A stretch of DNA of 64,000 bases, from positions 1 to 64,000 of the forward strand of contig JAIYDJ010000027.1 of assembly GCA_027487575.1 (NCBI GenBank), written 5' to 3'. The stretch is from Rhodobacter sp. GTDB taxonomy: Bacteria; Pseudomonadota; Alphaproteobacteria; Rhodobacterales; Rhodobacteraceae. Within the stretch, counting starts at the first letter, position 1. Every line of letters starts with the position of its first letter. Below are positions 61,487 through 63,334 of this stretch, in pieces. Under the pieces are notes generated by a model. That model had not been told where the DNA came from. It worked only from the letters and a program-made list of their open reading frames with translations, and ran no database searches. Position numbers and translations under genes: made by a program.

Positions 61487-61984
61487 TTAATCCTTCTTGC
61501 GCACCGACTTGCCATGCGGTTCCAGAACCGGCGCGGTGGTCAGAGTGCCGCCCGCGGCCGCAACGGCCTCGATCGCAGCCGCCGAAGCGCCCGTCACGTG
61601 CAGCTTGACCGCTGCGGTGATCTCACCCTTGTTCAACACGCGGATGCCGTCCCGCTTGTGGCCGGTGATGCCGGCCGCGATCAGAACGTCCTCGGTGATG
61701 TCGGCGCTGATGTCGAGCTTGCCCGCATCGACGAACTTCTGGATCAGGCCAAGGTTGATGATGGCAAAGCGCAACTGGTTCGGCTTGTTGAAGCCGCGCT
61801 TGGGCAGGCGGCGATACAGCGGCATCTGGCCGCCTTCGTATCCGCCGATGGCCACGCCCGAACGGGACTTCTGACCCTTGATCCCGCGCCCTGCGGTCTT
61901 GCCCTTGCCCGAACCCGGACCACGCGCCACGCGCTTTTGCTTTTTGGCGGCACCGGGGTTGTCGTGCAGTTCATTCAGTTTCAT
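61487..61984 (-). CDS. rplO: 50S ribosomal protein L15
   Basis: This 165-residue protein begins [20 protein letters not shown] and has [20 protein letters not shown] and [20 protein letters not shown]. The length is a little over the common 145-160 because of the C-terminal end GKSVRKKD. It is separated from rpmD by about 540 bases holding an oppositely oriented small gene, so it probably has its own promoter. Confidence 0.97.
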
Positions 61985-62237
61985 GTCGCATTCTCCTTTG
62001 CCGGAACTGTCCCTGCTGCGACGGCGGGGGCAAACACGGCGTTTCTTGTTGATTCTGTGACACGGGGTGCCACCGGAGGCGTATAGTGCAGCGTCCGTCA
62101 CCCGGCAAGCGCCGTTGCGCCCAGGATCACCGTCCCCGCCGCCAGATTGATGCAATCACGCGAACAAACTTTGCCGCCGGGAGTTTTACATCCGGAAGCA
62201 TCACATGAACCCATCGCTTCCCCAGGAGGAGAGTATC

Positions 62238-62390
62238 ATGGCCAACAACCAGAAACAGTCCGGTCAGGGCAAGGTCAAGGACCCGCAGAACGATCAGCGC
62301 CTGAAGGACAACGAAGGCGGCACGCAGGGTCAGGGACAGGTCAAGGACCCGAAGAACGATGGTCGGCTGAAGGAAAACCGCGACAAGTAA
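62238..62390 (+). CDS. Small hydrophilic protein with an internal KDPxNDxRLK repeat
   Basis: This 50-residue, highly charged protein starts at ATG 62238 behind a strong AGGAGGA site. It contains the repeated unit VKDPQNDQRLKDN and VKDPKNDGRLKEN linked by GGTQGQGQ. No hydrophobic segment and no Cys are present, so it is likely intrinsically disordered. It lies on the plus strand, opposite to the surrounding ribosomal genes, and has its own terminator. I do not recognise a named family; the build recalls small stress-induced hydrophilic proteins. Confidence 0.7.
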   Translation: MANNQKQSGQGKVKDPQNDQRLKDNEGGTQGQGQVKDPKNDGRLKENRDK

Positions 62391-62423
62391 GCGGTTCCGA
62401 CCATCAGGTCAGACATGCGACGC

Positions 62424-62456
62424 GGCCGCCCCCGTTCCGGTGGGGCGGCCTTTTTT
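62424..62456 (+). terminator. Rho-independent terminator of the small KDPxND gene
   Basis: A 9-bp GC stem (GGCCGCCCC with GGGGCGGCC) is followed by six T, 34 bases after its stop codon. Confidence 0.85.
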
Positions 62457-62472
62457 GTGAGGACCCCGATGC

Positions 62473-62501
62473 AAAAAGCCCCGGGTCATCCCCGGGGCTT
62501 T
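62473..62501 (-). terminator. Rho-independent terminator facing rpmD
   Basis: An 11-bp stem (AAAGCCCCGGG with CCCGGGGCTTT, loop of 5) is followed on the minus strand by T residues, 25 bases after the rpmD stop. It would end transcripts coming from rplF-rplR-rpsE-rpmD. Confidence 0.8.
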
Positions 62502-62525
62502 GCATCTGATCGCTGCGGATGTAGG

Positions 62526-62726
62526 TCAGCCGCGCTCTTCGACGATCGTCACGAGGTGACGGATCGAGTGGACCATGCCGCGCACCGAAGGCGTGTCTTC
62601 CAGCTCGCGGGTGCGGTTCATCTTGTTCAGGCCAAGACCGATCAGGGTCGCGGTCTGTTTCGCTGGGCGGCGGGCGGCGGATTTCACCTGCTTGACCACG
62701 ATGGTCTTTTTCGCTGCGTCGGTCAT
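62526..62726 (-). CDS. rpmD: 50S ribosomal protein L30
   Basis: This 66-residue protein has [20 protein letters not shown] and [20 protein letters not shown], the L30 signature. I use ATG 62726, seven bases after GGAGG; ATG 62732 overlaps the rpsE stop and has too short a spacer. Confidence 0.96.
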
Positions 62727-62728
62727 GT

Positions 62729-63334
62729 TCATGCCTCCACAACTTCGGCAACGGCGTCAACCGGAGCCGCGTCATGCTCGGGGCGACGCAGGATTTCAGC
62801 AACCTTCTTGCCGCGACGCTGCGCGACCTGACGGGGGCTGGTTTCCTTCTTCAACCCGTCCATCGTGGCGCGGATCATGTTGTAGGGGTTCGACGACCCG
62901 ATGGCCTTCGCCACCACGTCCTGCAACCCCAGCATTTCGAACACGGCGCGCATCGGACCGCCGGCGATGATGCCGGTCCCGGCCACGGCCGTCCGCATCA
63001 CGACGCGTCCGGCGCCGTGGCGGCCTTCCATGTCGTGGTGCAGGGTGCGGCTGTCTTTCAACGCCACACGGATCATCTGACGCTTGGCCTGCTCGGTCGC
63101 CTTGCGGATCGCCTCGGGCACTTCTTTCGCCTTGCCCTTGCCGAAGCCGACACGACCGCGCTGGTCGCCGACGACCACGAGTGCCGCAAAGCCAAACCGC
63201 TTGCCGCCCTTCACGGTTTTCGACACGCGGTTGATCGCGACCAGACGGTCGGCGAATTCCGGCGTTTCCTCGGGGCGGTTGTCGCGACGGTCATTTCCAC
63301 CACGGTTGTCCCGGCGCTGTTCACGTTCTGCCAT
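62729..63334 (-). CDS. rpsE: 30S ribosomal protein S5
   Basis: This 201-residue protein has a charged N terminus ([20 protein letters not shown]) followed by [20 protein letters not shown] and [40 protein letters not shown] follows. The family length is usually about 165-190, with the extra residues at the two ends. It lies between rplR and rpmD. Confidence 0.98.

Follow-up and report, generated by a model that had tools for sequence, protein, structure and literature searches.

The spc operon is a textbook example of conserved gene order. In the stretch of Rhodobacter sp. DNA analysed here (64,000 nucleotides, hereafter the window, from a draft genome of 122 contigs that is 89% complete), a small plus-strand gene is found between rpmD and rplO, both of which are on the minus strand. 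The initial annotation took rpmD and rplO to be normally adjacent, regarded an insertion at this place as unusual, and concluded that the small gene must split transcription of the operon. The question raised by the locus is therefore whether the gene interrupts an intact operon or lies where the operon is already divided, and how rplO and the genes following it would then be expressed. From comparison of sequences it is likely that spc consists of two units in Rhodobacteraceae, that the rplO unit is under a leader with a loop-linker pseudoknot, and that the gap is a cargo site which in the window holds a self-contained, probable stress gene. The features on which this reading draws are listed in Table 1.

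Table 1. Features in and around the rpmD-rplO gap of the window, in the direction of transcription of the spc genes.
Feature	Position	Strand	Evidence
rpmD (L30), final gene in the first spc unit	62526..62732	-	ORF; tblastn across family and class
Intrinsic terminator after rpmD, AAAGCCCCGGGGATGACCCGGGGCTTTTT	62467..62501	-	Hairpin plus T-run
Intrinsic terminator of the small gene, GGCCGCCCC..GGGGCGGCC-TTTTTT	62425..62456	+	Sequence; consensus scan
Small gene, 50 aa, two repeats GQGxVKDPxNDxRLKxN (start codon at 62238, stop codon ending at 62390)	62238..62390	+	ORF; tblastn relatives
Ribosome-binding site of the small gene, AGGAGGAG	62224..62231	+	Sequence; 6 nt upstream of ATG
Candidate sigma-EcfG-type promoter, CGAAC-N17-GTT, 77 nt before the small-gene ATG	62161..62185	+	Spacing shared with homologs
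Putative rplO promoter, -35 element CTTGCC	62104..62109	-	Conserved 17 nt before CTATACGC
Putative rplO promoter, -10 element CTATACGC	62079..62086	-	Comparison among leaders
Small 5' leader hairpin, GUGGCA..UGUCAC	62057..62073	-	Single-sequence folds of 41 leaders; similar in most
Conserved rplO leader hairpin: GCCG..CGGC outer stem, covarying inner stem, apical loop GUCGCA	62000..62040	-	Covariation; covariance model
Apical-loop half of the predicted pseudoknot, GUCGCA	62017..62022	-	Complementarity; compensatory changes
Shine-Dalgarno sequence of rplO, AGGAG	61993..61997	-	Sequence
Linker half of the predicted pseudoknot, UGCGAC, between the rplO Shine-Dalgarno sequence and AUG	61985..61990	-	Complementarity; compensatory changes
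rplO (L15), first gene of rplO-secY-adk-rpsM-rpsK-rpoA-rplQ, unit down to 56707	61487..61984	-	ORF; comparison

The rpmD-rplO gap was measured in 91 Rhodobacteraceae genomes. The two genes are on one strand of one contig in 75 of these, on opposite strands of one contig in five, and on different contigs in 11, which may be assembly breaks. Among the 75, the gap is never shorter than 99 bp; it exceeds 500 bp in 59 genomes and amounts to 10.5 kb and 520 kb in two. In 51 other alphaproteobacterial families, represented by one genome each, the gap is 10-133 bp with a median of 39, so the separation of rpmD from rplO belongs to Rhodobacteraceae, and comparison supports the split gene order as family-wide. 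The adjacency assumed in the initial annotation thus fails in this family, where in each of the 91 genomes the two genes either lie 99 bp or more apart or are separated outright, and insertions in the gap are common rather than unusual. Contig ends near the gap place rpmD and rplO on separate contigs in G227:C3, G132, and G228 (L113-L118); contig G227:C3 ends about 280 bp past rplO, and the gap may hold repeated sequence.

Three features of the region had not been remarked on before: a terminator after rpmD, and a promoter and conserved structured leader before rplO. The terminator, which is also supported by comparison, was detected in 39 of 41 Rhodobacteraceae gaps. The putative rplO promoter is visible only by comparison, a consensus sigma-70 scan having found no promoter: CTTGA-N17-CTATACGC is conserved before rplO, with 41 of 52 leaders scoring at least 10 of 13 and 11 scoring below that. 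Four genomes with gaps of 99-131 bp have little room for such a promoter. In the close relative G344 (L076), whose gap measures 99 bp, a terminator-like hairpin and the leader are retained, but no promoter can be recognised between them. The first spc unit would end after rpmD at the intrinsic terminator, and the second, rplO-secY-adk-rpsM-rpsK-rpoA-rplQ, would start about 100 nt before rplO, at a promoter of its own.

The last 59 nt of the rplO leader, including the start codon (62040-61982, minus strand), are conserved in structure. A covariance model built from 36 leaders was given 55 sources and matched all of them, once each, with 55 of 55 matches in rplO loci. The model also matches 285 of 292 Rhodobacteraceae genomes, and among the matches listed the places compared adjoin rplO; a match is absent in the other seven, one of which is G287. 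In 48 distinct leaders, 95.0% of hairpin cells form standard pairs, a figure inflated by the fitting of the alignment to the model, compared to 82.9% after shuffling, and 48 double-change cells were observed with 12.6 expected; none of 500 shuffles reached either value. Slid controls are at most 48% paired, and because this margin is large, model-fitting alone is unlikely to explain the pairing. In a scan of 58 genomes of the class, matches outside Rhodobacteraceae are weak, with frames unlike rplO in the listed loci that were examined, and were attributed to chance. No curated model in Rfam 15 matches the leader above its gathering score; isrD and FourU scored far below theirs and were rejected. 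In single-sequence folds, a second small 5' hairpin of the leader recurs as GUGGCC..GGCCAC or GUCGG..CCGAC types.

The apical loop of the hairpin is complementary to the linker between the Shine-Dalgarno sequence and the start codon of rplO. In the window, 62022-62017 (GUCGCA) can pair with 61990-61985 (UGCGAC), both within the segment that the initial annotation had described. All 52 leaders of a first set have at least six contiguous Watson-Crick loop-linker pairs. A second set of 40 leaders was retrieved afterwards, of which 39 were parsed; 38 of these have at least six pairs, where 1.6 would be expected with shuffled loops, and the exception (G260) pairs over eight positions with one G-U. 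Once G-U is allowed, complementarity equivalent to six or more pairs is present in 92 of 92 leaders. The variant GUCGCA/UGCGAC is found in the window and four other genomes, and compensatory loop/linker variants include GUCGCU/AGCGAC, UCGCUC/GAGCGA, UCGCUG/CAGCGA, GUCCUG/CAGGAC, and UCCGCUUC/GAAGUGGA. For example, G287 (L166), which the covariance model missed, keeps the pairing as GUCCUG/CAGGAC, with loop and linker both changed. In an anchored, gap-free frame, with anchors hand-set for two divergent leaders, there are 28 double-change cells at seven of eight positions, a count that none of 1000 shuffles reached. The core UCGC/GCGA is nearly invariant and the compensatory changes are few, some of them common to relatives, so the argument for a pseudoknot rests on universal complementarity together with a modest number of compensatory changes; within those terms, comparison supports the compensated complementarity.

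The mechanism suggested by this arrangement is translational. The apical loop would pair with the bases between the rplO Shine-Dalgarno sequence and AUG, the resulting pseudoknot would keep the 30S subunit off the rplO start, and its opening would permit translation of rplO. As modelled, the pseudoknot most likely sets translation of the rplO unit. Feedback by a ribosomal protein probably acts on the leader, a proposal made by analogy, since leaders in front of ribosomal genes usually work through feedback from a product of the unit they precede; we infer that L15 is the nearest candidate ligand. The more specific proposal, that the pseudoknot is stabilised by one of the unit's own ribosomal proteins (L15, judging by position, or another product) in a family-specific feedback acquired when spc was split, is tentative and stands at somewhat less than an even chance.

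Two other accounts of the leader have to be weighed. The leader may sense a cue other than a ribosomal protein, such as temperature, growth rate, or 30S availability; the pseudoknot would then be a passive brake on translation, and a loop-linker pairing of about six pairs could respond to temperature or to 30S subunits. This is rather unlikely, however: the leader stands almost universally in front of a ribosomal protein operon, as fits autoregulation, which is usual for such leaders (PMC7247131). Alternatively, the hairpin may be real and the loop-linker complementarity simply conserved sequence shared among leaders, in which case there would be no pseudoknot and the element would be a simple stem or an mRNA stability element. 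The nearly invariant letters of the core pairing are consistent with this, as is the good match that remains when loops are exchanged between genomes (5.84 against 6.36), although swapping is a weak control when the core is invariant. Compensatory changes in G000, G105, G307, G212, G121, G116, G120, G287, and G260 argue against it, and none of 1000 column shuffles reached the observed percentage paired or the observed double changes, making the absence of a pseudoknot improbable.

Judged by its contents, the gap serves repeatedly as a site for cargo genes, of which the small gene is one optional example among many. The contents vary across Rhodobacteraceae (loci L073-L112) and some gaps hold nothing. 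DUF1127 proteins are encoded in the gap of several genomes, a metallo-beta-lactamase-fold protein in that of G066 and G068, an ectoine-synthase-like cupin in that of G105 with a related ORF in G121, and an RraB-like protein in that of G016 and G083.

Much of what the initial annotation said of the small gene itself holds: ORF calls and coordinates confirm a plus-strand gene of 50 residues between rpmD and rplO, the two KDPxNDxRLK repeats are real, and the ribosome-binding site, described as very strong, is AGGAGGAG. With this site, a terminator of its own, and the upstream CGAAC-N17-GTT at -77, the gene looks self-contained. The protein has no match in Pfam, NCBIfam, or PDB, but tblastn found 19 related loci in named genomes, mostly of Belnapia, Rhodopila, Craurococcus, Roseicella, other Acetobacteraceae, or alphaproteobacterial bins. 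In these relatives the repeat unit, close to GxVKDPExDGRLKENR, occurs one to about five times, and by this resemblance the small gene is a member of an unnamed family, mainly from Acetobacteraceae, of disordered proteins with GxVKDPxxDGRLKENR repeats; the family, too, is supported by comparison. A longer branch of the family (L033-L037) has one repeat followed by a conserved C-terminal tail, LKSREYKDAxGNVHHHTRTYxEQHGK. Weak tblastn matches with E above 0.1 were rejected, as was a match in G320 (E 0.009), which the profile failed to recover.

A profile search, proposed with the initial annotation as a check on the repeat protein, does yield homologs, and within Rhodobacteraceae it recovers the gene in only two of 292 genomes, that of the window and G231. 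G231 is of another genus and its copy also lies between rpmD and rplO, oriented as in the window; other genomes of that genus do not have the gene. The two copies differ at 32 nucleotides in aligned codons, with 7, 3, and 22 differences at codon positions 1, 2, and 3. The 19 related loci and the same-gap homolog indicate that the small gene is more than a chance reading frame. Its distribution may reflect ancestry with losses or sideways transfer. Searches of phage and plasmid collections gave no match, and thus no sign there of the gene riding mobile elements.

The upstream sequence suggests how the gene may be regulated. The published EcfG motif is GGAAC-N17-20-GTT (PMC6599016). A perfect GGAAC-N17-GTT precedes seven of 23 members of the repeat family, with a shuffled mean of 0.07, and nGAAC-N17-GTT is found in 14 of 23; of spacings from 12 to 22, enrichment is at 17 only. 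The homolog in G231 has a perfect site at -78, while that of the window at -77 has one mismatch to GGAAC-N17-GTT. Many homologs, including the Rhodopila group, do not have an EcfG-like site. The genome of the window encodes NepR (over the cut-off, G000:C81), and by inspection the ORF next to nepR reads as an ECF sigma factor and GGAAC-N17-GTT precedes nepR. The NepR anti-sigma factor is patchy in Rhodobacteraceae, being found in 10 of 15 genomes tested. The likeness to the sigma-EcfG general stress regulon of Alphaproteobacteria lies in the perfect sites before seven of the 23 homologs and in the presence of NepR and the motif in the genome of the window; the difference is that the window's own site is mismatched (CGAAC), and the small gene is a candidate member of the regulon.

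Hydrophilins are disordered stress proteins, and the small protein resembles them in being very hydrophilic (GRAVY -2.19) and glycine-rich (seven of 50 residues), with few hydrophobic residues. It differs in having no curated family or solved structure to which it can be matched, and the likeness is one of composition. Because of the extreme hydrophilicity, the best guess is that the gene product is short and disordered, built of repeats, and probably a hydrophilin-like protein of the general stress response. A role in ribosome assembly or in regulation of the neighbouring genes instead of stress would be surprising: occupation of the same gap in the same orientation in two genera is in its favour, but most homologs belong to other families and the recurring nGAAC-N17-GTT points to a general stress sigma factor. 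That the gene was recently inserted into an intact operon and thereby split its transcription, as first proposed, can hardly be right despite its rarity in Rhodobacteraceae and the adjacency of rpmD and rplO in other families, since the gap, terminator, promoter, and structured leader are all present in relatives without the gene. A split in transcription is still very probable, as the initial annotation held; the small gene is not its cause.

In Table 1 of a survey of r-leaders (PMC7247131), the alphaproteobacterial entries are L2 and L17, L15 is represented only by archaeal eL15, and no bacterial rplO leader is included. The main texts of two surveys of structured RNAs make no mention of rplO or Rhodobacter, and a literature search for an rplO leader or split spc operon, partial in coverage, gave nothing relevant, which is weak evidence of absence. 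By location and covariation the rplO leader is a candidate r-leader. Like r-leaders (PMC7247131), it combines structure with covariation, lies immediately upstream of ribosomal protein genes, and is predicted to act on their expression; it differs in being absent from Table 1 of that survey and from Rfam 15, with a function predicted from sequence. If confirmed, it would be the leader RNA of a gene for which that table (PMC7247131) lists none in bacteria, and the proposed mechanism predicts exact compensatory mutations.

The comparison suggests more broadly that a whole bacterial family has cut spc at one place and has a new structured control element before rplO, secY, adk, and rpoA. With the small gene comes an unnamed family of disordered proteins built on repeats, which probably belongs to the general stress response. 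The E. coli alpha operon has an S4 pseudoknot leader. The rplO leader resembles it in having a predicted pseudoknot at a translation start, before a unit containing rpsM, rpsK, rpoA, and rplQ. However, the Rhodobacteraceae unit begins at rplO and the ORFs of the window show no rpsD in it, and the topology predicted for the rplO leader is different, with a hairpin loop paired to the linker between the Shine-Dalgarno sequence and AUG.
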